Assembly (NCBI GenBank): GCA_947576945.1
Contig: CANPTH010000006.1
Location: forward strand, 1-64,000
DNA: 64,000 nt
Reading direction: 5' to 3'
Source of the DNA: an uncultured Lachnospiraceae bacterium
Lineage (GTDB): Bacteria > Bacillota > Clostridia > Lachnospirales > Lachnospiraceae
The notes beneath the pieces were generated by a model. The model was not told the DNA's origin. It worked only from the letters and a program-made list of their open reading frames with translations, and ran no database searches. Below are positions 1-12,967 of this stretch, one piece after another (position 1 is the first letter of the stretch; each line of letters opens with the position of its first letter). The position numbers and the translations under genes were made by a program.

Positions 1-182
1 TAAATCAAAGGCTTTCAGCCCCTGAGACTTTAGTAACTTGTAAACTTACGCTAGAGATATGTCAGAACGGCAGTATATTTTCTATAGCTGAATATACTAT
101 AAACGACATTTTGCGATGAAGAGGAAAATATAATTTTGACATAAATTATTAAGGATACAGGAAATGCCAGGGAGGGTAGAAT

Positions 183-1247
183 ATGGGGAATGATTCTTTA
201 TATAACAACGGTGGAGTATTGTCAGATGTTGATATTCAGAAGGAAATGAAGAATGGAAATATATTTATTGCACCTTTTGTACAAGCTCAGTTACAGCCGT
301 CGGGCTATAATCTGACGCCGACAAAATTTTTCTATTCTACCAAAAAGAAGCAATTTTTACCTATTGTTAACAATGAAGAAGAAACATATGTAATGATAGA
401 CAGGAATGACACTGTGCTGGTTAGGACGAGAGAATCTATTGCTATATCCCCGATTCTGACAGGTGCGTTCTATTCAAAGGTGAAAGTGGTTTCCGAAGGA
501 TTTGGTCATGTTTCTACAACATTGGATCCGAATTGGGAAGGTCAATTGTTGATTTCTTTAAATAATCCGACGAACAGAAGAGTAAAGTTTTCCATAGAAA
601 AAGAAGTATACGGTAATAGGATCTGCAATTCTTTCGTAACATTAGAATTTATGTATTTGAATCAAGCAGCCATGCATCCTTCGGATAATCCACCTGGAAG
701 GCTGGACATTTTAGATAATACGCTAAGAAGAAATATCTCCACATTTAAGAAGAAAAAAATTTCAGATCTTGAAAATTTAGTGTCCCAATTGCATGATCAG
801 GAAACAAAGACTATAGAGTATCTTATTATGCAGCATCTGAATGAAGAAGAAGAAAAGGAATGGAAGCAGATTAACATTATAAGAGATGAGAATTCATATA
901 ATGTTAGAAAAGGAGAATTTATCAGGGCAAAAAAGGAAAAATATCTTCGGCCGATTCAAAAGAATTTTGCTTTAAATGCGGAGAGAAGCATGGGTATAGT
1001 CAATGAGTATATTGAAAAAAAGCAGCAATACTTTTCATATAGGAAACGATTCTGGCTTTTCCTTACGAGAAATAAATTGTGGGTTGTCAATATTTTGATA
1101 TGTTTAGTGCTTGCCGGGATTTTGCTGAGGTATAATTCTATAGATTCTGAAAAAGGAACGATTTATACAATGGTATCAACGATTATTATTTATATAGTGA
1201 TACCAGTTATGCTTCCTCTGATTGACGAGTACTTTAAGGGTAAATGA
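183..1247 (+). CDS. dCTP deaminase/dUTPase-fold protein with C-terminal two-helix membrane tail
   Basis: Residues about 10-165 resemble dCTP deaminase: an N-terminal segment with LQPSGYNL (compare LQPSSYDL) and a core with TTLDPNWEGQLLISLNN (compare the IDPGW-G-EF-N strand of Dcd). By an alignment from memory, the Arg/Ser pair and the catalytic Glu of E. coli Dcd (LEFYN) are not conserved, because the Glu position reads Ser (ISLNN). The domain may therefore bind rather than deaminate nucleotides. Residues about 180-285 are charged and helical, probably coiled coil. Two hydrophobic helices follow at about 299-315 and 326-346. The start has a strong Shine-Dalgarno GGGAGGG at 170-176. The gene is AT-rich and sits 18 nt upstream of a cytidine-deaminase gene, probably in one transcript. 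Dcd-like enzymes are known phage-defence factors that deplete dCTP. Coupling of this fold to a membrane tail is inferred to be a sensor-effector arrangement. Confidence 0.6.
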   Translation: MGNDSLYNNGGVLSDVDIQKEMKNGNIFIAPFVQAQLQPSGYNLTPTKFFYSTKKKQFLPIVNNEEETYVMIDRNDTVLVRTRESIAISPILTGAFYSKVKVVSEGFGHVSTTLDPNWEGQLLISLNNPTNRRVKFSIEKEVYGNRICNSFVTLEFMYLNQAAMHPSDNPPGRLDILDNTLRRNISTFKKKKISDLENLVSQLHDQETKTIEYLIMQHLNEEEEKEWKQINIIRDENSYNVRKGEFIRAKKEKYLRPIQKNFALNAERSMGIVNEYIEKKQQYFSYRKRFWLFLTRNKLWVVNILICLVLAGILLRYNSIDSEKGTIYTMVSTIIIYIVIPVMLPLIDEYFKGK

Positions 1248-1265
1248 TGAATATTAATAAACATA

Positions 1266-3458
1266 ATGGAAAGGAATCAAAATGATATGAATATTAATTT
1301 GGCATCCAGGATACAACAACAGACAATTAATAAAGTTTTTGCGCAAAGAGAGAATTTTATTTTATTAGGGGTGACAGGTTCCGTAGATAGCAATTTATCG
1401 GAGATCAGAGATATTCTACAGAGTAATTTTACCGATCTGGCCTTGCCGGATGAAATTCAGGGCACGATAAAGGAAAAGCTGGAATACAAGAATATCTGCC
1501 ATTATGCGCAGCGCCATTGGAAGAAGTTTGATGTGATTAAAACAAGAGATGTCATCATTACCTATATTTTAGAGAATCACAGGACACTTCAGAGATTTGA
1601 GGAAGAAATTTCAAAAAAAATATTTGATGATACAGAGTTTTGTAATCAGTGCTATAGTATGTTTGAAAAACGAAAAAGTGTACTGATCCAGGGAAGTACA
1701 GAGGAAAAAGAAGTATATCAGGAATTAAAGGAGTTTCAGGATAACTGTTTTAAAAACGGTTTAAGAAAAGAACTTTTGAATAAGAACCAGGAATTGTTGA
1801 AGTATGTGGAGGTATTGCGTAGTAAGAGCGGATCAGAGCAGAATGCCAGAATCAGTCTATCGCTCTATGTGTATACAAAATACATTTTGCCGATTATTGG
1901 TCAAAACATCAAAGGACAATTTTCGTCTAAGAAGTACTATGTTTCTCTTTTTAGAAACTATGGAAATGAAATACGTTTTTTTGGAACATTAGATTTGACA
2001 CAATGGAGACAACAGTTACAACAAAACGATGACGAACATGATTTCATTTTCTTTTATAGTATAGCTAAAAGAATAAACACATTTATTAAAATACGTAGAT
2101 CGCCATTTTCTAATAAACAGTCTGTGCCTGTACATATTGTAATTGATTCTTTGAAGAATCCATATGAATTCAGTTTTTTGAAAGACAGATATTCAGCCTA
2201 TTATACGCTTGCACTACTGCAGGATAAGAAGAATACAGAAAACTCTGATATACTATATGAAAATCCTGGGAAAATAAAAAAGAATTTTAAAACATTTATC
2301 CACTTAACGATTGAGCAGTTGGAACAGGAGCACGCCTTAGTGAATACTGAGGATTATAGATACATACAAGCATTAAGATTGCCGGATCAATTTATTCAAT
2401 ATATTTTAGAGCGTCTGAATAAAAAAGAGGAAGGTAGCTGCAACATTGAATGGTGTTCGGAAATGGAAGGAATAAAATATGGAATCCAATATCAGAGGCT
2501 GGGGATTATGGAGGAGGAGTTCCTTTTCTTTCGAGAGATTTTAAGAGAACCAGTCCGTACTTTCTGTATGATCACAGATTTATTTCCGTTTTATTTACAG
2601 GATATTCAAAGTTCAACGCAGAATGCGGATATTTTTTTAAGTAATTCAGATGATACTATGTATGGGAAAAAGCTTACTTATCAATTGGTGAAGTATGTTA
2701 GTCTCATCATGCATCCCGGTTTGGTGCCGCCAACAAATATTGAGGCTTGCATGCAGGTGGCATTCAGTGCAAAAGTTAATTCTGGCTGTATTTCACGTCA
2801 GGTTGGAGCAGTAGTCACGGATAAGGATTATAATATATTGTCTTTAGGCTGGAATGATGTTCATTGTGACAAGATTCCATGCATCTACCGCACATTGCGA
2901 GAATTACAGCACGGATGTAATAGAGAAATTTACAGTGATTTAGAATTAGATAAGAATTCTTTATTCAGAAAGCAGGTTGATTGTTATAATTTTACAGATT
3001 ATCAGAAACAAGAAAACATTTTGGGTGGTCTGTCTTCGGTTTATTGTTTTAAGGCAATATATAATGAAGTGACACATGACAGAAATCCGTCAAATTCTCG
3101 GGCTATACATGGAGAGCAGAGAGCTTTTTATGCCTGTGATAAGGAAAAGGCAAAGGGTGGCTGTTTATTTACAACATCAAGTTCCTGTGAAGCATGTACA
3201 ATGTTTGCAAATCAGCATGAGATTAAAAAAATATATTATATAGAGAGTTACCCAGGGATTGCGCAAAATCATGTAAATGCATCTGGTAAGATAGAGAAGA
3301 GAGCGGAATTTATTCTATTTGAGGGAGCGATAGGGGTGGCATATATGAAGCTATACACTCCGAATATTCCTATGAAGGATGAACTGCAGCTTCGAGGTAT
3401 AGAGCAGCTTATAGAGAATCCATATTTGGAGAGAAGCGAAGAAAACGGAAACCGGTAG
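1266..3458 (+). CDS. P-loop + cytidine/dCMP deaminase, AvcD-like antiviral deaminase
   Basis: This 730-residue protein has a C-terminal zinc-dependent cytidine/dCMP deaminase domain. The catalytic HGE is at residues 615-617 and the zinc ligands C-E-A-C at 641-644. The second motif is preceded by SSS rather than the common Pro-Cys. An N-terminal hydrophobic strand followed by GVTGSVDSNLS (about 35-45) looks like a P-loop in which the usual GK[ST] is replaced, so nucleotide binding there is doubtful. The order P-loop domain, long middle, dCMP deaminase is that of AvcD, which deaminates dC nucleotides during phage infection. Upstream of ATG 1266 no clear ribosome site is visible; an in-frame ATG at 1287 lies behind AAAGGA and may be the true start. 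Codon use is AT-rich like the neighbours. No RNA antitoxin like AvcI could be identified. Confidence 0.72.
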   Translation: MERNQNDMNINLASRIQQQTINKVFAQRENFILLGVTGSVDSNLSEIRDILQSNFTDLALPDEIQGTIKEKLEYKNICHYAQRHWKKFDVIKTRDVIITYILENHRTLQRFEEEISKKIFDDTEFCNQCYSMFEKRKSVLIQGSTEEKEVYQELKEFQDNCFKNGLRKELLNKNQELLKYVEVLRSKSGSEQNARISLSLYVYTKYILPIIGQNIKGQFSSKKYYVSLFRNYGNEIRFFGTLDLTQWRQQLQQNDDEHDFIFFYSIAKRINTFIKIRRSPFSNKQSVPVHIVIDSLKNPYEFSFLKDRYSAYYTLALLQDKKNTENSDILYENPGKIKKNFKTFIHLTIEQLEQEHALVNTEDYRYIQALRLPDQFIQYILERLNKKEEGSCNIEWCSEMEGIKYGIQYQRLGIMEEEFLFFREILREPVRTFCMITDLFPFYLQDIQSSTQNADIFLSNSDDTMYGKKLTYQLVKYVSLIMHPGLVPPTNIEACMQVAFSAKVNSGCISRQVGAVVTDKDYNILSLGWNDVHCDKIPCIYRTLRELQHGCNREIYSDLELDKNSLFRKQVDCYNFTDYQKQENILGGLSSVYCFKAIYNEVTHDRNPSNSRAIHGEQRAFYACDKEKAKGGCLFTTSSSCEACTMFANQHEIKKIYYIESYPGIAQNHVNASGKIEKRAEFILFEGAIGVAYMKLYTPNIPMKDELQLRGIEQLIENPYLERSEENGNR

Positions 3459-4025
3459 ATTATAAAAACAGGATGTTTAACCGGTGGCTCTTGGAATGTC
3501 GAGGCTAGTGTTTTCGGGTGTTGCGATCCATTACACGCTTACTTTGTGTCTGCTATTTTTGCCTGGTAGTTTCTATAGAAAAAATAAAAACGTAATAATG
3601 ATAATCTGGCGTAAATTTCAAGATATGGTGGCGGCGACGATATAACATTTACAAAAGACGCAAAATATTGATTGTGCAATTTTACAATTATACGAATTGA
3701 GCAGTGTTTTAAGGATTGTTTTTTCTTAGAAAAACCTGTATACTGTAAGTAATAAACAGGATTATCCGCTTTTGAGAATAAGAACTGTGCCGTAGCTGTT
3801 ATTCCAACAGAAAATGGAAACCAGAATAACGCGTTAAAAAGCTGATGATGAGAGGTATTAGTTCACAATTTGTTGTATTGGTTTGAATAGAAATACAGAA
3901 AAAATACAAAAATAGTCATGAGAACTAAAAGAGCAATGTTGAATATGATAAAACAATAAAAGCATTGGCCAGAGAATGATGACATAGGTATAATTATAGT
4001 TATCTAAGCAGAGTGAGAATAATAG
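3459..4025. other. 567-bp intergenic region with promoter and long leader
   Basis: No convincing gene was found on either strand; a 78-codon open frame on the minus strand at its right end has no ribosome site and no family features. The region separates the two halves of the island. It contains a good sigma-A promoter at 3716-3744 that would leave a leader of about 275 nt before the ATG at 4026. The leader is AT-rich and could contain a structured or regulatory RNA, but no specific fold could be assigned by eye. Confidence 0.6.
3716..3744 (+). promoter_or_regulatory. sigma-A promoter of the PRTase-rdrA-rdrB operon
   Basis: TTGTTT (3716-3721), a 17-nt spacer and TATACT (3739-3744). It is the best promoter-like sequence upstream of the three-gene operon and implies a leader of roughly 275 nt. 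Confidence 0.6.
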
Positions 4026-5873
4026 ATGAAGCAGAGTGATTTGAAAGAAATGGCATTTTCTATTTTTGAAGAAGATGTAATTATGGGACTGCAAAAGTGG
4101 TATAAGGACACATTAGAGACAAAGTGGGAGTATGTTGTTTTTATTGTGCGCCGCAGTTATATGTTGGCATTGATCATGGAAAAGATAACAGGAAAGAGCA
4201 TGACCGCAAGCGAAACGGGTCATTATTTGACTGATGCTTCCATGATTTTGCATTGCGCTGAATTGGCGGATGTATATAGGAAGAGGCATAGATTTCCAAC
4301 GATTTTATTATGCGATGATGTTTGTATACATGGAAGAAATATTAATCATTTCATCAAAACAATTGAGAAGAGACTTGTATCGCTGCTTCCTGAGTATAAT
4401 GAGGCGGATATTAAAGCAGCTCTGCTTGAATCGCTGCGGATTCATGTGTACGTCAGATCCGAAGAGCCGCTCTTATTGGATGGGAAATATGAATTTAATC
4501 TGAATTATGAAGACATAGTGAACGCAAAATTTTTGCATAAATTTTCAAATGATATTTCTTTACTGATTTCATTATCAGGGATTGCAAATGCGAGCTATAT
4601 TTATTCCGAAAGTATATCATCGAAACTTATTGACGCGATAGATTTAGAGGAATTTATTGATACGAGTTATCAAAATGTGAGGCAGCATACGCAGATAAAA
4701 TTTATCGGTGACAGCGGATCGAAGACTGCAATTTTTACCTTGAGAATTATTGAGAGGCCAGATGACAAATGGAATGTTCTTCCCTTTATTTTCATGCCGA
4801 ATTTGGGGGCGGAAGAAACACATGAGCTGCTTTGGATTATTCAAAGTAGAATGAGAAGCAGGAATATAACAGAAAGGTATATTTCGCGGCTGCGTGATCT
4901 GGAACAGATACCAGGCAAAAGGACTTTCAATGAAATGGTCACGCTGATATTAAGTCATACTCTGTTACAGGATTTTAATCGGAAATATGGAATCATAGTT
5001 TCGGAAGAGGACATAGAGGAAGAAATTACAAAGTTGGCAAGAAACTATGATCAGTATGGATTCATAGATACAAAAGCGTGGCTTAAGTCAATTATATCAG
5101 AGCAGTTATTTATGCCGGACGAAATTGCCAGAATATTGAAGTATGTTATTATGCCGGAGCGCAAAATGATCTTTATCAAATCTGGCAGTATAGATGATCT
5201 TTCTAAGCTGAACGAGATGACAATCAGGAGAAAATTGGAGAGATATTTCTATACCAGAGGAAGCGAGGAGGAAAGAGAAGCCTACTTAATTTCCAGGAGA
5301 CCATACGCGCATGAGCGAGAGCGCACAGCGCGTAAAGCCCGGGGCTGTGGATTTCTGTTATGGGAACTTAATGACGGTTATGTAGAGTTGGAAGCCAAGT
5401 ATTGTATTGCGTATTTTTTGCAGATGATGGATGCCGGAGTAGTATGCTTGTCTTCTTTTGCGCCAAATGAAATTAATGTGGTGGGGATGGCTCAATTCGC
5501 CAAAACAGGCGAGCAGTCTTTGGTGAGTGAACCGCTTAGATTTTATGAATGGATACCGATGCTGGCAAAAATTGAAGATGAATGCGGGGAGAATCTGGAA
5601 GAATTTTATACCGAATTTGAGAGATACGGATTGAGTCCGCAATGTGGTCTCGATAGGAGGAGTTTGGGAGAGATAGAGAATTTCGTTCAGGAAATTTATC
5701 GTATGGGACAGCGGATACAGGATTGGAATAGCTGGAGTTTGAGTTATCTTTATAAATTAGAGTACGATTTAACCGGAATGGAAGATGTGGCCCGTTATAA
5801 AAAAATGTCTAAGTTTTTGGATCTGCAAATAAAACATATATCAGATTATATGGTTTACAAGCGATTTGGATAG
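4026..5873 (+). CDS. Phosphoribosyltransferase-fold protein of a RADAR-like operon
   Basis: This 615-residue protein has an N-terminal segment with the hallmarks of a type I phosphoribosyltransferase fold: a hydrophobic strand with VVFIVRRS at about 37-44 and, at 92-106, the strand ILLCDDV followed by CIHGRN. That matches the PRPP-binding signature (hydrophobic strand, two acidic residues, G-[RT] loop). The remaining roughly 450 residues are not recognised. They are rich in helices and include a charged stretch around 400-440. PRTase-fold domains have been catalogued by comparative genomics as components of prokaryotic conflict systems (PRTase-CE). The gene is followed after 21 nt by the RdrA-like ATPase and shares its base composition and promoter, so it is inferred to be a component or regulator of the RADAR-like system. 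Whether it is an active transferase cannot be decided here. Confidence 0.55.
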   Translation: MKQSDLKEMAFSIFEEDVIMGLQKWYKDTLETKWEYVVFIVRRSYMLALIMEKITGKSMTASETGHYLTDASMILHCAELADVYRKRHRFPTILLCDDVCIHGRNINHFIKTIEKRLVSLLPEYNEADIKAALLESLRIHVYVRSEEPLLLDGKYEFNLNYEDIVNAKFLHKFSNDISLLISLSGIANASYIYSESISSKLIDAIDLEEFIDTSYQNVRQHTQIKFIGDSGSKTAIFTLRIIERPDDKWNVLPFIFMPNLGAEETHELLWIIQSRMRSRNITERYISRLRDLEQIPGKRTFNEMVTLILSHTLLQDFNRKYGIIVSEEDIEEEITKLARNYDQYGFIDTKAWLKSIISEQLFMPDEIARILKYVIMPERKMIFIKSGSIDDLSKLNEMTIRRKLERYFYTRGSEEEREAYLISRRPYAHERERTARKARGCGFLLWELNDGYVELEAKYCIAYFLQMMDAGVVCLSSFAPNEINVVGMAQFAKTGEQSLVSEPLRFYEWIPMLAKIEDECGENLEEFYTEFERYGLSPQCGLDRRSLGEIENFVQEIYRMGQRIQDWNSWSLSYLYKLEYDLTGMEDVARYKKMSKFLDLQIKHISDYMVYKRFG

Positions 5874-5894
5874 TATGAAAGAGGAGAACTCGAT

Positions 5895-8588
5895 ATGCAG
5901 AGAGAGATAGAGATCTATGCAGGAGATGTATATAGAGCAAAGACAGAGAAAGAATTTCATACAGGGATCTTTTTTGAGGAAGTTTATAAAAGGACGGATG
6001 CTATAGTATGTGACATTATTGAGCAGATGAGGATCTATGCGGAGGATAGCAGAGTACAGGGTGGATACAAGGCAAAATATCACGGAATGGGTAATAATAT
6101 TGTAACTTTCTGCGCAGATCGTGGACAGGGTAAGACCAGTGCGATGCAATCATACGCTGCATATCTGCAGAATAATGATATTGCGAGAGATAACTTTTTT
6201 GGGCCGGGTAATGTGATTAACAGATCATACTTTAAAGTGTTAGATCCAATTGATCCTTCTGCGTTAGATAGTGGAGAATCTATTATCAGAGTTTTGGTTT
6301 CAAGATTGTTTCTGGAGTTTTCCAAGCTGGCAGAAGAAAACAGGCTGCCTTTTAAAGATGAGATAAGATTCCGTAAAGAAAAGGATAACATATTAAAAGC
6401 ATTTGAGAAATGTTATGAGAATATAGATTATCTGCAGAAGGATAAGTGTGTTGAAGTCTATGATCTGGAAACACTGGCGCAATTAGGCAATAGTGCAGAA
6501 TTGAAGAAAAATTTGTATAATTTAGTAGATTATTTTTTAGATCTGTTTTTTTGCGAGAAGGGAGAAAGGAGACCGGCTTATCTTGTAGTACAGGTTGATG
6601 ATGCAGATTTGTCTATGGGAGATATTTTTAAGATTTGTGACGATATCAGAAATTATTTCTCCATTCCTAATATCATCGTCATGATGGCGACAAATTATAA
6701 TCAACTGGAGGTTGCTATCGCTCAGCGCTATATGAAGCAATATGAGTGTACCATACGTTTACAGGAGCAAAGAAATTTTGCGGAAGAATGTAATCGAATG
6801 GCATTTAGATATCTTGAGAAAATGCTGCCTGCAGGACATCGGGTAGTACTTACGTCCGTTGATGCTTTGATCAATGAGAACGTTAATTATTTTACTGTTT
6901 TGTACTACAGAAATAGTGAATTTGTGAAAGCCAGTGCCAAAAATGATGTGTTTAAGACGGAAATTGAGGTGAACTGTCGATGTCAGAATGTGCAGCAACA
7001 GCTGATTAGGTTTCTGTATATGAAAACAGGAATTATTCTATTGGAACGCCCGGGAGAAATGCATTCTGTTTTGCCGCATACATTGAGGGAATTGACGCAT
7101 TTCGTGAAGCTGTTAGATGATATGGAGAAGTTTGATCAGTGCAGTGCATTGAAAGTCTGGGTAAAATCAGGGGACTTGTCTGAAGTAGAGAAGTGGAAGA
7201 GAAATTTGGATATTCTGAAACGATATTTTTTGAATTATTGGTGTGGGACACACATGAATTATAGCCAGCAGGTTATGATAGAAGAAATTGATCAAGCCAA
7301 TAGAAAGATGGAGCTTGTGTATCAGAGTATCGATAAGTATATCAAATCCTGTGACGGAAAGAGCGGTATATCGATTAGCCAGCCATATAGTTACGGTGCA
7401 GTTATGAAAGTGTGCGTGGAAAATGGACTGGCAGCACATCCTCTTTTACAGGATGCTCTTATTTTCTATTATACAATTGTACTAAATGAATGGTTTGTAC
7501 AGTCAATTGGGAACTCAGAGAAGGCCAGAATGCTGGCTCGGTTTATTGGAAAACCAATAGATACAAAAAAGGTGGGAAATGACAAAAAGTATAAGATTTT
7601 ACACTTTGATTTTCCAGCAGAGAAATTGCGGCAGTATGCTGAAGGAGAATTGACAAATATGTCCAATCAGGCTTGGTTGAAGGCATTCTGTATAGAAGCT
7701 GACGATACTTCTTTGGATGATGTAATGGGGGTGAAGAAAAGTGTGGCAGGAGGAACAGTCAGTGGGAAAACAGGAGCAAAGATCCAGTTCAATTTATTTC
7801 ATCCAATCTTGACAATGCTGTATAGTGATATATGGTTAAATCAGCCGGATGGAAGGCAGGCGCCTCAGGATTCAGCATCTGTTAGTGACTATATTGGAGA
7901 CAGTGAGCATCTGAACGATCATGTCGATATGGGTTATCTGATCAGTGCAAAAAATATGCTTATTAATTATGATGTACAAAGATGGGTAAGGTTAAGAGTG
8001 GAGACAAAGATAAATGAGTGGGATCGTAGTGGTGAAAGAAGATTGGACAGGATATGGAAAAGTTATTATACAATCATAGATTCCTGGGCAAATGAATGCA
8101 GATACCTGGGTGAAAACAGTATTCTGTCACAGGTATGCTTCGGGGAAAATTTTGAGAACTCGATTCTTGGAAATGTTATTTTTCTCTGTAATGATGATAA
8201 TAGAAAAAAATATATTGAGGCATATAAGAGTTATTTGTCGCAAGTGACGAATAATGCTGGTGGTAAGGCGGCGAGATTGGTTAAATCAAACAAGGATTAT
8301 GAAATGGTACTGGCCGCGAAACAGATGATAGGAGATATAAAATCTTCCTCCATAAACAGTGAGATAGTTATGTCATTAGATGAGCAGATAGGCAGCAGCC
8401 AGTTTGTTCAGAGAATTTCAGAGTTAAGAGATCTGGTTGGCATAGAGCGGGAAATTGAACAGGAATGTGATAAATTGACGGATTTATTGGAAAAAGATGA
8501 AAAAATTGAATTGTTAAGAGAAGGCTTAAAAAGTTTTAGCAGCAGTTTGAAATCACAATATGCAAGAATTCAGAAAATACATGTATAA
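5895..8588 (+). CDS. rdrA: RdrA-like ATPase of RADAR-type defence system
   Basis: This 897-residue protein has a Walker A motif ADRGQGKTS at about 74-82, preceded by a hydrophobic strand (NNIVTFC), and a Walker B-like VVQVDDAD around residue 233. It is followed by a strand ending in ATN, as in AAA+/STAND-like ATPases. The large C-terminal part is helical and unrecognised. Length, ATPase placement and the immediate downstream adenosine deaminase of similar size match RADAR, in which RdrA (about 900 residues) assembles with RdrB and restricts phage through adenosine deamination. The start has GAGGAG (5881-5886) about 8 nt upstream. The stop of the PRTase-like gene lies 21 nt before the start. 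The identity is based on architecture and context, not on a sequence search. Confidence 0.75.
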   Translation: MQREIEIYAGDVYRAKTEKEFHTGIFFEEVYKRTDAIVCDIIEQMRIYAEDSRVQGGYKAKYHGMGNNIVTFCADRGQGKTSAMQSYAAYLQNNDIARDNFFGPGNVINRSYFKVLDPIDPSALDSGESIIRVLVSRLFLEFSKLAEENRLPFKDEIRFRKEKDNILKAFEKCYENIDYLQKDKCVEVYDLETLAQLGNSAELKKNLYNLVDYFLDLFFCEKGERRPAYLVVQVDDADLSMGDIFKICDDIRNYFSIPNIIVMMATNYNQLEVAIAQRYMKQYECTIRLQEQRNFAEECNRMAFRYLEKMLPAGHRVVLTSVDALINENVNYFTVLYYRNSEFVKASAKNDVFKTEIEVNCRCQNVQQQLIRFLYMKTGIILLERPGEMHSVLPHTLRELTHFVKLLDDMEKFDQCSALKVWVKSGDLSEVEKWKRNLDILKRYFLNYWCGTHMNYSQQVMIEEIDQANRKMELVYQSIDKYIKSCDGKSGISISQPYSYGAVMKVCVENGLAAHPLLQDALIFYYTIVLNEWFVQSIGNSEKARMLARFIGKPIDTKKVGNDKKYKILHFDFPAEKLRQYAEGELTNMSNQAWLKAFCIEADDTSLDDVMGVKKSVAGGTVSGKTGAKIQFNLFHPILTMLYSDIWLNQPDGRQAPQDSASVSDYIGDSEHLNDHVDMGYLISAKNMLINYDVQRWVRLRVETKINEWDRSGERRLDRIWKSYYTIIDSWANECRYLGENSILSQVCFGENFENSILGNVIFLCNDDNRKKYIEAYKSYLSQVTNNAGGKAARLVKSNKDYEMVLAAKQMIGDIKSSSINSEIVMSLDEQIGSSQFVQRISELRDLVGIEREIEQECDKLTDLLEKDEKIELLREGLKSFSSSLKSQYARIQKIHV

Positions 8589-8614
8589 GTAAGAGCGGTA
8601 AAGGAATTTGGTAT

Positions 8615-11305
8615 ATGCATCAGGAGAGAGAGAATCTGGATATTTTATTTCGCAGGACGGCACCGGAAATTGTGCTGGATAATATCAGAACTTATGGACA
8701 GATTTTTAAAGAGTGTCAATTAAAGGCTGATGTGTCAAATTACGATAAAAATACCTATGAGCATTATTCTTTGTTAAATTTTCAGGAATATTCACCAGAT
8801 GAAGTGGAGTTACGTTTTGAGTATCTGAACAATTCTGCGAATCAGAATTCTTATGCATTGATCTTTCATACCTTATATGATTATGCGAATAAAGTATTGG
8901 TTATGAAACACGGGGAACCTGTTTGCAAAATGGATATGCTGCTTGGATGGAATTCTATTTCAAAGCGTTTGAGCCAGGATCTTTTGACTACAATATGGCT
9001 GGCAAAAATGGATGCAGATACATATGAAACCCGGAAAAGAAGCTTTTCCTGGCCGCCAGTTATAAAAACAGATGATAAAAGACTTGAGGAGATCTTTGCA
9101 AAGGGGCTTGCAGAGAATCATTTTCATTTACACGGCTCGACACAATCTTTTGCAATATCCTGGATCGCGCTTATGAATCATCCGGAATATCTGGGAGAAT
9201 ATTTTCTTAAACGACAATATTTGAAAGAAAATCTGGATGTCAATATTTCCAGGGGAAATGTAGATAATCAGATGAGCTGGAAGGACAGAGTGAAGTATGC
9301 AGCCATGATACGCGCTTTATTGTTTGCGCGATGCGCGGATATTATCGATGGTAGTGCTATGTGGGAAATGTTCAGGAGGTTTGACAGAATACCCTCAGTT
9401 TCTAAAATTAAACAACAGACAGAATCCCTGAGAAGAATCTACGGAACCTGTTTTGAACAGAGAGCAGGTAGAAACGTGTATCTTGATTATACGATTAGTG
9501 GTAGTTTCTATCATGTAGATGGAGGATCGGCTAATCGGTTACTTGCAGGAGAGAGAAGTTTACTTTATCATTGTTTTCGCAGGCTGTTTGAAAAGGATTT
9601 TACCGTGCAGGAGGCCACGTTATTATATTTATATATCCTTATCAAAAATCAGTTTAGAAGTGAGCTGGTACAGGTAAATAGAAGAATGGGATTCACAAAT
9701 TTTGCCTGGTATCAGAATAGAAAAAATCAGTTTTTTGGCGTAGAAGAAGAGTATTGGGCAGAAGCACAGAGATTATCAATTGGATCGGCAATGGAAGACG
9801 GACATCTTGTTTCTTTGGAAGCGAGAATTATGCCGAAAGATACAACCAATCAGTTAAGGCAGGAAATTAACAGATTAAATTTCAGAATTCGTCTGGCATT
9901 GGGAGAGAATAAGGAAATGCCGTATTATGTGATTCATTTTCCTAAGAAGAAATTTTCTTATGAGGAATTCAAGCGGTATGGACTAATGTACCCCAGAAAC
10001 TGGCAGACCAGAGTGATGGTGAAGAAGAGAGCACAGGCATTGGTGAAATATTTGCAGACATATGATAGAGCAGAAGAAAGCATTTGGGGAATTGATGCGT
10101 GTTCATTGGAAATAGGATGCAGGCCGGAAGTGTTTGCTACAGAATTTCGATATGTGCGGCAATATGGAGGTATAAAGGGAGACCACTGTTGGAATGATGA
10201 TCTGGATAATAAGCGTGAAAAGATCGGTATAACTTACCATGTAGGCGAAGATTTTCTGGACATTATAGATGGGCTGCGGGCAATTGATGAAGCGATAAGC
10301 TTTCTTCAATTAAAGAATGAAGACCGGTTAGGACATGCGTTGGCATTAGGAATTGATCCTGAAGAATATTATGAAAAGAAAAAGAGAGAAATCTATATAC
10401 CGTCTCAGGATTATCTGAATAATCTGATTTGGATTCTATACAGATCGCTGGAATTAAATATACAGATTGATGCGAACTATAGAGCCAAAATGCAGGAAGA
10501 AGCCAGAAGTTTGCTGTTGAAGATTTACAGAACTGATAATTCCCATTTCGTGGATAGTGTTATGGAAAGGCAGCCAACAGAGGTTCTGGATATGTATTAT
10601 GCGAGCTGGAAGCTGCGGGGAGACCATCCTGATCTGTATAGATCAGGAAGTTATAAAGAAATATATGGCCTGGCAGAAGAACAGTATAATTCCTGTATGA
10701 AAACAGAAGGAATTGACGAATCATACAGGGAGCATAACCTGATATCTGAATTATATTCTTCTTATCATTTTGATGACAAAGCTAAGAAGGAAGGGTTAAA
10801 ACCTATATGTTTTAGCGTCGAAAGATGGTATGAAGATCTTGCCCGGGAGTTTCAGGTGAAAATGCGACAAAGGGTTGCGGAAAAGGGATTGGCAATAGAA
10901 TGTAATCCAACATCTAATGTTCTGATAGGAACTTTTGGATTTTATGACAGGCATCCGATTTTGGCATTTAATGATCACCACCTGAATGAAGGGTCAAAGG
11001 AAGCACATATTCAGGTATCCATCAATACAGATGACCTGGGAGTATTTGATACATCTCTTGAGAATGAATATGCATTGCTTTTGTGTGCAATTTGCAGGGC
11101 GCGTCATAAAGAGGGAAATTATAATGATGATGCAGTGTATGAATATCTGGATTACCTGCGTGAGAACGGAATAAGGATGTCATTCCGTACTATAAAGGAA
11201 ATTAATCAGATGAGAAGTATTTCGGTATGCCGTGTGAGTGGGGCAGGAAGGTCAGAAGGTTTTGCTTCGAGTGGTTATGGCTTTCGAAATGCCGGGGACT
11301 TATGA
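8615..11305 (+). CDS. rdrB: RdrB-like adenosine deaminase of RADAR-type defence system
   Basis: This 896-residue protein has adenosine-deaminase active-site elements spread over a much enlarged chain: HLHGS at 171-175 (metal-binding H-x-H), TYHVGED at 540-546 (third metal-binding His and catalytic Glu), DRLGHALALG shortly after, ECNPTSN near 768-774, and SINTDDLG at 802-809 (catalytic/metal Asp pair). Classical adenosine deaminases are about 350 residues. The long insertions and total length fit RdrB, the divergent deaminase of RADAR that forms a large shell with RdrA and converts adenosine to inosine in RNA or nucleotide pools. It lies 26 nt after the RdrA-like gene and ends the AT-rich island. 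All expected catalytic residues are visible, so an active enzyme is likely. Confidence 0.85.
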   Translation: MHQERENLDILFRRTAPEIVLDNIRTYGQIFKECQLKADVSNYDKNTYEHYSLLNFQEYSPDEVELRFEYLNNSANQNSYALIFHTLYDYANKVLVMKHGEPVCKMDMLLGWNSISKRLSQDLLTTIWLAKMDADTYETRKRSFSWPPVIKTDDKRLEEIFAKGLAENHFHLHGSTQSFAISWIALMNHPEYLGEYFLKRQYLKENLDVNISRGNVDNQMSWKDRVKYAAMIRALLFARCADIIDGSAMWEMFRRFDRIPSVSKIKQQTESLRRIYGTCFEQRAGRNVYLDYTISGSFYHVDGGSANRLLAGERSLLYHCFRRLFEKDFTVQEATLLYLYILIKNQFRSELVQVNRRMGFTNFAWYQNRKNQFFGVEEEYWAEAQRLSIGSAMEDGHLVSLEARIMPKDTTNQLRQEINRLNFRIRLALGENKEMPYYVIHFPKKKFSYEEFKRYGLMYPRNWQTRVMVKKRAQALVKYLQTYDRAEESIWGIDACSLEIGCRPEVFATEFRYVRQYGGIKGDHCWNDDLDNKREKIGITYHVGEDFLDIIDGLRAIDEAISFLQLKNEDRLGHALALGIDPEEYYEKKKREIYIPSQDYLNNLIWILYRSLELNIQIDANYRAKMQEEARSLLLKIYRTDNSHFVDSVMERQPTEVLDMYYASWKLRGDHPDLYRSGSYKEIYGLAEEQYNSCMKTEGIDESYREHNLISELYSSYHFDDKAKKEGLKPICFSVERWYEDLAREFQVKMRQRVAEKGLAIECNPTSNVLIGTFGFYDRHPILAFNDHHLNEGSKEAHIQVSINTDDLGVFDTSLENEYALLLCAICRARHKEGNYNDDAVYEYLDYLRENGIRMSFRTIKEINQMRSISVCRVSGAGRSEGFASSGYGFRNAGDL

Positions 11306-11397
11306 GGGAGAGTGGTAGAATATAGGCGGCAGTTGTATAATCTGCACAATTCCCCGCATCTCAATCTGTGAAAAACACCGAACTTTCAAATTCCCTC

Positions 11398-11426
11398 TTG
11401 TCAAATATTCGTCAAGGTTATATACT
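11398..11426 (+). promoter_or_regulatory. sigma-A promoter of the alpha-glucoside transport operon
   Basis: TTGTCA (11398-11403), a 17-nt spacer and TATACT (11421-11426). The predicted transcription start near 11433 lies just before the 12-bp repeat array. Confidence 0.7.
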
Positions 11427-11442
11427 TAACCCATACAGCGGA

Positions 11443-11502
11443 AACGTTACCGAGAACGATGCCGATACCGTTACCGATATCGTTACCGACAACGTTACCG
11501 CA
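11443..11502 (+). repeat. Five 12-bp direct repeats, probable sugar-regulator operator array
   Basis: CG-TTACC cores occur at 11445, 11457 (variant CGATGCC), 11469, 11481 and 11493, exactly 12 bp apart; the consensus is NNCGTTACCGAY. The array starts about 10 bp downstream of the predicted transcription start and before the lipoprotein gene. A two-unit version of the same 12-bp repeat (CGATACCGAAAY) sits in the same position relative to the malQ promoter, which points to a common regulator, perhaps the LacI-type protein at 16885. Confidence 0.7.
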
Positions 11503-11536
11503 CATAACAAACACTCATGAAAGAGAGGGAAATAAT

Positions 11537-12967
11537 ATGAAAAAGAAACTGGTAAGCACATTATTGTGTGCAGCAATGGTTTCCTCCCTGCTTGCAGGCT
11601 GCGGCGGTTCAGATGCACCGGCTGCAGATTCCGGCTCAGATGCAGGAACAGAGGCTGCAGGTGATGATGCAGGAGCTGGAGATTCCGGCGCAGCAGCATC
11701 CGGCGATTACAGCGGAACAGTACGTATGTTGAACTTCAAACCCGAGATCTCCGATGCGATGCAGGAAGTAGCGGCAGCTTATACTGCTGAGACAGGTATC
11801 GACGTGCAGATTGAGACAGCGGCTTCCGGTCAGTATGAATCCACACTGACAGCAAGAATGGACAGCTCTGAGGCGCCTGGTATTTTCGTAGTAGAGAATG
11901 TAACGGCACTGGGCAACTGGAAAGAGTACTGCCGTGACTGGTCCGACACAGAGCTTTACTCCTATGTGACAGACCAGAAGTACACGATGCAGGAAGACGG
12001 CAAGGTTCTGGCGCTGTGCTATGTGCTGGAAGGCTGGGGCATCATTGTAAACAGCGAGATTACAGATGCATATTTTGCATCTCCTAATAAGTCCACAGAG
12101 TACACTTCTCTGGACGAGCTGTATACCTTCGACGCATTGAAGGCAGTGGTAGAGGATATGACAGCGCTGAAGGACGAGCTGGGGATCCAGGGCGTATTCG
12201 GTTCCACATCTCTGAAGCAGGGTGATGACTGGAGATACCAGACACATCTGATGAACATCCCGCTTTACTGGGAGTGGGGCGCAGACGTTGACATCAACGG
12301 TCCTGTACCGGAGTTTTCTTTCGCAAATGCTGAGAACTTCAAGAATATTCTTGACCTGTACTTAAACAACTCCGTGATCGAACCCAGCCTTGTTGGTACG
12401 AGAACAGTTGACGATTCTATGGCTGAGTTCGCGCTGGGACAGTGTGCTATGATCCAGAACGGTGACTGGGCATGGAATACAATCCTGAACACGGAAGGCA
12501 AGGTTGTAAAGGATGACAAGGTTCGCTTCATCCCGATCACATCCGGCGTAGCTGGTGAGGAGAACATGGGCCTTTGCGTAGGCGGTTCCCAGTCCTTCTG
12601 CATCAACTCCCAGCTTCCTGAGGAAGATCAGCTGGCAGCGATCGATTTCCTGACATGGCTGTTCTCTTCCGACACAGGTAAGAACATGGTAGCGCAGAAG
12701 CTGCAGCTGGTGACACCGTTCTCCTGCATGGAAGGCGCAGAGTACACCAATCCTCTGTTCGGCAGTGAGGCTGAGATCTCCGCAGCAGGCAAGACTGCAT
12801 ACAGCACAACCTGTAACCTGATTCCTGACCAGACATGGAAAGACAGCTTCGGTGCAAGCCTGTTGATGTATGCACAGGGCCAGAAGACATGGGACGATGT
12901 TGTTGCAGATGCTGTTTCCGAGTGGGCTGTTGAGAGAGACATCACCAATACGGCTAACGGTAACTAA
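11537..12967 (+). CDS. Extracellular sugar-binding lipoprotein (alpha-glucoside/maltodextrin ABC transporter)
   Basis: This 476-residue lipoprotein has a signal MKKKLVSTLLCAAMVSSLL ending in the lipobox LAGC, a Ser/Asp/Ala/Gly-rich linker, and then a family 1 solute-binding domain (TGIDVQIETAASGQYESTL and WGIIVNSEI are typical). The ATG at 11537 follows AGAGAGGGA and begins the signal peptide, so an upstream in-frame extension is unlikely. It captures sugar outside the membrane and delivers it to the two permeases downstream. Nearby malQ suggests a maltodextrin-type ligand, which is inference. No ATPase gene is present, so a shared MsmX/MsiK-like ATPase elsewhere would be needed. Expression is probably controlled by the promoter and 12-bp repeat array upstream. 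Confidence 0.88.
   Translation: MKKKLVSTLLCAAMVSSLLAGCGGSDAPAADSGSDAGTEAAGDDAGAGDSGAAASGDYSGTVRMLNFKPEISDAMQEVAAAYTAETGIDVQIETAASGQYESTLTARMDSSEAPGIFVVENVTALGNWKEYCRDWSDTELYSYVTDQKYTMQEDGKVLALCYVLEGWGIIVNSEITDAYFASPNKSTEYTSLDELYTFDALKAVVEDMTALKDELGIQGVFGSTSLKQGDDWRYQTHLMNIPLYWEWGADVDINGPVPEFSFANAENFKNILDLYLNNSVIEPSLVGTRTVDDSMAEFALGQCAMIQNGDWAWNTILNTEGKVVKDDKVRFIPITSGVAGEENMGLCVGGSQSFCINSQLPEEDQLAAIDFLTWLFSSDTGKNMVAQKLQLVTPFSCMEGAEYTNPLFGSEAEISAAGKTAYSTTCNLIPDQTWKDSFGASLLMYAQGQKTWDDVVADAVSEWAVERDITNTANGN

Follow-up and report, generated by a model that had tools for sequence, protein, structure and literature searches.

Two deaminase modules with pseudo-enzyme-like partners, probably independent defence systems, side by side in an AT-rich island of an uncultured Lachnospiraceae bacterium

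In an uncultured Lachnospiraceae bacterium, a stretch of 64,000 nucleotides (GenBank assembly GCA_947576945.1, contig CANPTH010000006.1, positions 1 to 64,000 of the forward strand; hereafter the window) carries five consecutive AT-rich genes, which form variants of two types of deaminase defence, the AvcD type and the RADAR type, each with a dedicated partner. Module A (183-3458, two genes) joins a membrane protein with a catalytically degenerate dCTP-deaminase fold, here called DCD-TM, to an AvcD-like deoxycytidylate deaminase, while module B (4026-11305, three genes) is made up of a 615-aa leader resembling a phosphoribosyltransferase (PRT), an RdrA-like ATPase and an RdrB-like adenosine deaminase. 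Both modules recur in other genomes and each occurs there without the other; both deaminases keep their active sites, and catalytic positions are changed in both partners. We consider it probable, at roughly 70%, that these are two independent defence modules lying side by side in one island, each with a pseudo-enzyme-like partner. The initial annotation, made from the letters of the sequence, had proposed that the five genes could be one layered system, which the survey does not support; its assignment of the gene sets to a nucleotide-targeting type of defence is supported, as is its placing of a PRT-like gene at the head of a RADAR-like pair.

The five AT-rich genes are present where the initial annotation had placed them, at 183-1247, 1266-3458, 4026-5873, 5895-8588 and 8615-11305, all on the plus strand. 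Their G+C content is 0.34-0.39 as opposed to 0.51 in the rest of the window, which starts at base 1 of the contig (C6 of this draft genome), with 182 bp preceding gene 1. Genes 1 and 2 are separated by 18 bp, genes 3 and 4 by 21 bp and genes 4 and 5 by 26 bp, and between the modules lies a spacer of 567 bp (3459-4025, no strand assigned). An RNA element in this spacer was considered and found no support: there was no Rfam match in the loci L062, L002 and L001, which jointly span window positions 1-12802, no unusual RNA fold (z 0.45), and the same-strand open reading frames (ORFs) of the spacer are all 53 aa or shorter.

The separability of the modules has been seen from both sides. In L066, from a second genome of the same family (G567), DCD-TM is 55% and the AvcD-like deaminase 58% identical to those of the window, with the order kept and a gap of 50 bp, and no RdrA- or RdrB-like match was found in its 18.5 kb; nor does G567 figure in the set of 21 family genomes, out of 397, that gave an RdrB match, some of these matches being short and resembling ordinary adenosine deaminases. 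The pair is found again, far diverged, in L082, an IMG/VR contig and the one locus returned by a viral-contig scan with an enlarged DCD alignment, in which the AvcD-like gene, here 777 aa long, starts 27 bp downstream of a DCD-TM of 304 aa with one membrane segment. This pair adjoins serine-recombinase genes, and no RADAR-like genes were seen in the stretch. On the other side, the whole of module B recurs in L057, a locus of an uncultured Roseburia metagenome-assembled genome, where the leader is 43%, the RdrA-like protein 34% and the RdrB-like protein 50% identical to the window, with the order kept and gaps of 15 and -4 bp, and where no DCD-TM or AvcD-like gene was found in 21.8 kb. A two-row AvcD alignment profile (A7) likewise gave no match in the genome of L057, an empty result that the tool flagged as needing caution. 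In a final survey of 116 loci for DCD-TM, AvcD-like and leader genes this distribution was confirmed, and as far as searched the two modules stand together only in this window. A single five-gene system hitting cytidine and adenosine pools jointly would account for five adjacent genes on one strand with a common low G+C, but it is highly improbable, since each module occurs without the other, the 567-bp spacer between them contrasts with 18-26 bp within them, and none of 20 stretches around RdrB matches in the family holds a match to DCD-TM or the AvcD-like protein (or to the PRT-like leader).

The DCD-TM/AvcD-like pair, known from three genomes, is the stronger finding of the two, the link between the PRT-like gene and RADAR being known from two. 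Both L066 and L082 were found by DCD queries only, so the adjacent deaminase was not part of the search. When the 397 same-family genomes were searched with the DCD profile, four matches were obtained: the window, G567 at full length, a 299-aa frame in G497 and a 182-aa frame in G686, the last being of ordinary Dcd size. A phylum sample searched at E <= 1e-10 gave matches in 5 of 388 genomes including our own, and the other four were frames of 182-206 aa, again the size of an ordinary Dcd. Viral scans with the window RdrB, the window DCD and alignment A7 returned no relative, and profile A7 matches 2 of the 397 family genomes, a count that is not independent, A7 having been built from those same two.

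A scan of viral contigs for AvcD relatives returned 24 loci, with the L082 contig among them. No DCD-TM was found at the 23 others, although five of these start 62 bp or less from the deaminase, leaving the upstream side unseen, and none was found in the stretches around L060 and L061, two relatives on plasmids. When 28 deaminases were placed in a tree, the 3 DCD-paired proteins grouped in a clade (100/99) separate from the 25 unpaired ones (23 viral, 2 plasmid); the tool warns of long branches meeting, and the exact position of the paired clade is unsure. The paired deaminases are also longer, at 730-777 aa versus 554-632 aa.

DCD-TM (183-1247) carries the Dcd fold at about aa 12-142, which matches Pfam DCD (PF22769) with 53.9 bits against a cut-off of 27; a profile of the window protein and two plasmid relatives matches dCTP deaminases of the PDB with an E-value of 6.4e-10. 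Its C-terminal part has two predicted transmembrane segments, at aa 292-310 (1056-1112; 19-residue hydropathy 1.72) and aa 329-347 (1167-1223; 2.33). Six such proteins (from the window, L066, L058, L059, L067 and L082) were aligned with the ordinary Dcd of the genome that holds the window and that of L067. The two ordinary enzymes carry the GRSS..R.G and LEL motifs, and in all six DCD-TM proteins the Arg position is Ser or Ala and the Glu position is Ser, Gly or Ala; the Arg and Glu lost here are catalytic in E. coli Dcd. Three of these proteins are predicted by hydropathy to have two membrane segments, and three to have one.

The neighbours of DCD-TM differ among these loci: an AvcD-like gene in three, a dUTPase gene in two and an active-looking Dcd in one. 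On two Bacillaceae plasmids the DCD-TM gene is directly followed by the dUTPase gene (L058:5962-7443 and L059:5965-7482), and in L067 two ORFs stand between the DCD-TM gene and the active-looking Dcd, about 1.4 kb upstream of it. In L058 a SIR2 gene precedes the DCD-TM gene. Because all of these neighbours act on the line from dCTP through dUTP to dUMP, DCD-TM may be a nucleotide sensor.

The AvcD-like deaminase of 730 aa (1266-3458) matches the PADLOC dCTPase and scores 221.6 bits with the anti-phage dCTP deaminase model NF041025, which is under the cut-off of 400. Its zinc deaminase motifs are kept, namely HGE at aa 615-617 (3108-3116), with H615 and E617 invariant in alignment A10, and SCEAC at aa 640-644 (3183-3197), a motif reading in which the Pro of PCxxC has become Ser; most unpaired relatives have SPCELC at this place. 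The P-loop that the initial annotation had given it is degenerate: it reads GVTGSVDSN, as opposed to GLTGRTGSGC in most of the standalone relatives. Among the paired deaminases the P-loop is degenerate in the window and L066 and intact in L082.

AvcD is restrained by the unstable RNA AvcI (PMC10511110), and this raises another role for the partner. DCD-TM might not be a membrane effector but stand in for AvcI, acting on the AvcD-like toxin as its protein antitoxin or as a tether to the membrane. The gaps of 18, 50 and 27 bp are too short for AvcI, whose length PMC10511110 gives as some 171 to almost 300 nt, to sit between the genes, and the deaminases of the pairs are longer and form a clade of their own. 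In the window, 18 bp lie between the deaminase gene and the gene upstream, 182 bp precede gene 1, and there was no Rfam match over positions 1-12802, Rfam coverage of AvcI being unchecked. Such an RNA could also sit upstream of the DCD gene, however, and DCD-TM adjoins dUTPase genes in stretches that hold no AvcD relative, so it would not be solely an AvcD inhibitor; we regard this role as a possibility with perhaps three chances in ten. Under the reading of two independent modules, the AvcD-like enzyme would deaminate dCMP or dCTP during infection, and the dead Dcd-fold membrane protein would sense deoxypyrimidine nucleotides (dCTP, dUTP or dUMP), either perturbing the membrane or restraining the deaminase until infection.

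In module B, the RdrA-like ATPase of 897 aa (5895-8588) has Walker A and B motifs, RGQGKT at aa 76-81 and DD at aa 235-236, which are invariant with L057. The RdrB-like deaminase of 896 aa (8615-11305) was aligned to E. coli RdrB (8fnv) with HMMER, and its active site is kept at the positions of E. coli H152/H154, H498/E501 and H530: the metal motif HFH at aa 169-171 (9119-9127) is aligned with HQH, HVGE at aa 542-545 (10238-10249), with a metal His and the catalytic Glu, with HVGE, and RLGH at aa 571-574 (10325-10336) with RLGH. The Walker motif types of RdrA and the active-site residues of RdrB are as in PMC9994260. Both proteins match the NCBIfam models weakly and below the cut-offs, RdrA with 49.8 bits (cut-off 600) and RdrB with 152.4 bits (cut-off 800), the canonical RdrB of Aliivibrio scoring 969.6. 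An RdrB tree of 24 rows joins the window with L057 at 100/100, inside a 15-row clade that lies far, on a long branch, from the 2 canonical rows. In L057, sugar-nucleotide and polysaccharide genes (read from translations) precede the triplet, and a 616-aa gene without a Pfam match follows it.

Leading genes of another kind have been found at related loci. The 20 stretches around RdrB matches comprise 11 with an RdrA-like gene beside RdrB, 1 (L038) that is cut at its contig end, 6 with a longer upstream gene unmatched by the window RdrA, and 2 (L051 and L052) with no more than a fragment. Among the 11 RdrA-RdrB loci, seven (L036, L037, L039, L040, L041, L042 and L044) have ahead of rdrA a gene for a protein of the TPR type whose N-terminal region is conserved; it scores above the Pfam TPR cut-off in L037, L039 and L042, and these seven loci make up one RdrB clade (99/100). 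Loci of this RADAR-like group thus commonly have a third gene in front, of a type that tracks the RdrB lineage. A relationship of the PRT-like leader to the TPR-type leaders was rejected, no similarity being found. Several other features of these loci were recorded: in L042 a DUF4231 membrane gene (above cut-off) comes next and in L041 a weakly matching one; L045-L050 and L054 form a second RADAR-like clade, in which rdrB is preceded by a gene of roughly 940-1130 aa that the window RdrA does not match; and in L033 a 602-aa MORN-repeat protein (L033:12872-14680) stands ahead of the RdrA-like gene.

The leader of module B (615 aa, 4026-5873) is less easily classified. In a low-confidence structure model it has an N-terminal alpha/beta domain resembling HGPRT and a mostly helical C-terminal part, and at aa 93-105 (4302-4340) the motif ILLCDDVCIHGRN, which is like a phosphoribosyl pyrophosphate (PRPP) loop, stands in register with VLVVEDIVDSGRT of L108, a PRTase of the same genome. 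The structural likeness to HGPRT, over about aa 9-152, is a middling match from an AlphaFold model with a mean pLDDT (predicted local distance difference test) of 57.7 on a three-sequence alignment; the first 200 residues folded alone and without an alignment gave 45.8, and Foldseek on the leader model found no match at E <= 0.001. No match was obtained with PADLOC or PDB sequences and none above cut-off with Pfam, the Pribosyltran profile gave nothing up to E 10, and the leader is not among the nine Pribosyltran matches of its own genome. When a profile of its N-terminal part was compared with six of those nine PRTases and 271 background ORFs, the six ranked 24, 50, 63, 95, 109 and 276 of 277, a negative outcome as a homology test; for L108 and L114 a short alignment was in register on the PRPP motif. 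A PRTase fold, which the initial annotation had assigned, is therefore plausible but unproven from sequence and model: the motif and the middling structural match speak for it, and the Pribosyltran profile does not.

Relatives of the leader were found at two loci. L057 was the single locus from a scan of genome contigs with two short peptide patterns; none was found in plasmid or phage records, and 391 genomes of the class held the window copy only. The other, L032:10001-11836 on a phage contig, is a leader alone, without rdrAB, so that the PRT-like gene is linked to rdrAB in two of three members, window included. In L032 a gene for an SPFH protein follows about 570 bp after the leader, the contig ends 1.7 kb after it, and on the upstream side there is an NAD-dependent DNA ligase of phage type; this orphan leader is possibly a viral decoy. 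It is unlikely that the leader acts as a third enzyme, for example in purine salvage or consuming PRPP, since in its motif CDDVCIHGRN the position that is the catalytic Asp in HGPRT holds Ile, followed by His, in all three members, and D98 is Tyr in L032 (CDY for CDD).

Chance would be another source of these arrangements, with the PRT-like gene and DCD-TM as accidental neighbours of otherwise ordinary systems. Small samples would allow for this, as would the leader without rdrAB in L032 and the other neighbours of DCD-TM in L058, L059 and L067; yet order and tight spacing are kept in separate, diverged genomes for both modules, and linkage follows clades in the deaminase and RdrB trees, which makes chance very unlikely.

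From these few genomes we infer a probable role in defence, and with it ligands for the partners, an order of events and a mechanism. In module B the RADAR-like pair would poison adenine nucleotide pools (ATP to ITP and dATP to dITP, as in canonical RADAR), and the PRT-like leader, as a pseudo-enzyme, would bind a ligand and license or trigger RdrA-RdrB. A bolder version, which we hold tentatively and at rather less than even odds, would have both partners as nucleotide enzymes turned sensors: DCD-TM, a dead and membrane-anchored Dcd fold, would read a change in dCTP or dUTP governed by its AvcD-like neighbour (by a dUTPase or Dcd at other loci) and damage the membrane, as a nucleotide-gated abortive system, and the dead HGPRT-like fold would read purine nucleotides or PRPP and switch on the RADAR-like ATP deaminase, the leader of L032, with its additionally altered motif, being a viral decoy of that sensor.

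As for the borders of the island, the G+C content climbs at the end of rdrB (window 11200-11460), where the last rdrB codons exceed the part aligning with L057, and the right border is possibly located there. No empty site was found, the right flank having no clear orthologue in two same-genus genomes. The downstream gene, judged by eye to encode a substrate-binding lipoprotein, has its predicted start in a repeat-like stretch (window 11459-11537), and translation probably begins instead at the ATG at 11537, ahead of the signal peptide.

The two deaminase systems described here have dedicated partners that resemble nucleotide enzymes and have changed catalytic positions, which bears on the way RADAR and AvcD-type systems sense infection. 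If these partners are sensors, small clonable operons could show whether bacteria detect phage through their own nucleotide pools. Canonical RADAR converts ATP/dATP to ITP/dITP in infection and forms a giant RdrA-RdrB assembly, with RdrA only suggested to control sensing (PMC9994260); a PRTase together with DprA confers phage defence (PMC9122126); dUTPase domains are among predicted defence parts (PMC13092281); and phage dUTPases act as signal molecules for Stl of Staphylococcus aureus pathogenicity islands (SaPI), placing a fold of the dUTPase superfamily in signalling (PMC5593958). Among the papers listed by literature searches on a PRTase with RdrA/RdrB, TPR proteins with RdrB, AvcD, and DCD or dUTPase with membrane partners, no description of either module was seen, which is weak evidence of absence as most subscription papers lay outside the library searched.

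Module B shares with RADAR an ATPase gene followed by an adenosine deaminase gene and the metal and catalytic residues of RdrB, but differs in falling far under the RdrA and RdrB cut-offs, in the long branch that separates its RdrB from the two canonical rows, and in its PRT-like leader, which is absent from the three subtypes named in PMC7699616 (rdrAB alone, with Csx27 and with SLATT), none of them PRT- or TPR-led. With AvcID and the anti-phage dCTP deaminases, gene 2 of module A has in common a C-terminal zinc deaminase domain and an N-terminal GxTG region, as opposed to its length of 730 aa, its degenerate P-loop, the SCxxC that replaces PCxxC, its separate clade and a DCD-TM gene immediately upstream. 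The PRT-like leader is like the type I phosphoribosyltransferases HGPRT and PyrR in structure over about aa 9-152 and in its PRPP-loop-like motif, and unlike them in having no profile match, an Ile at the presumed catalytic Asp and some 450 extra, mostly helical residues. DCD-TM shares by profile the fold of Dcd, of the trimeric dUTPase superfamily, while it has lost the active-site Arg and Glu and gained a C-terminal region with membrane segments. The SaPI Stl dUTPases offer a precedent for the use of this superfamily fold in signalling, although there it is an enzyme that binds a repressor, whereas DCD-TM is a membrane protein without the catalytic residues.

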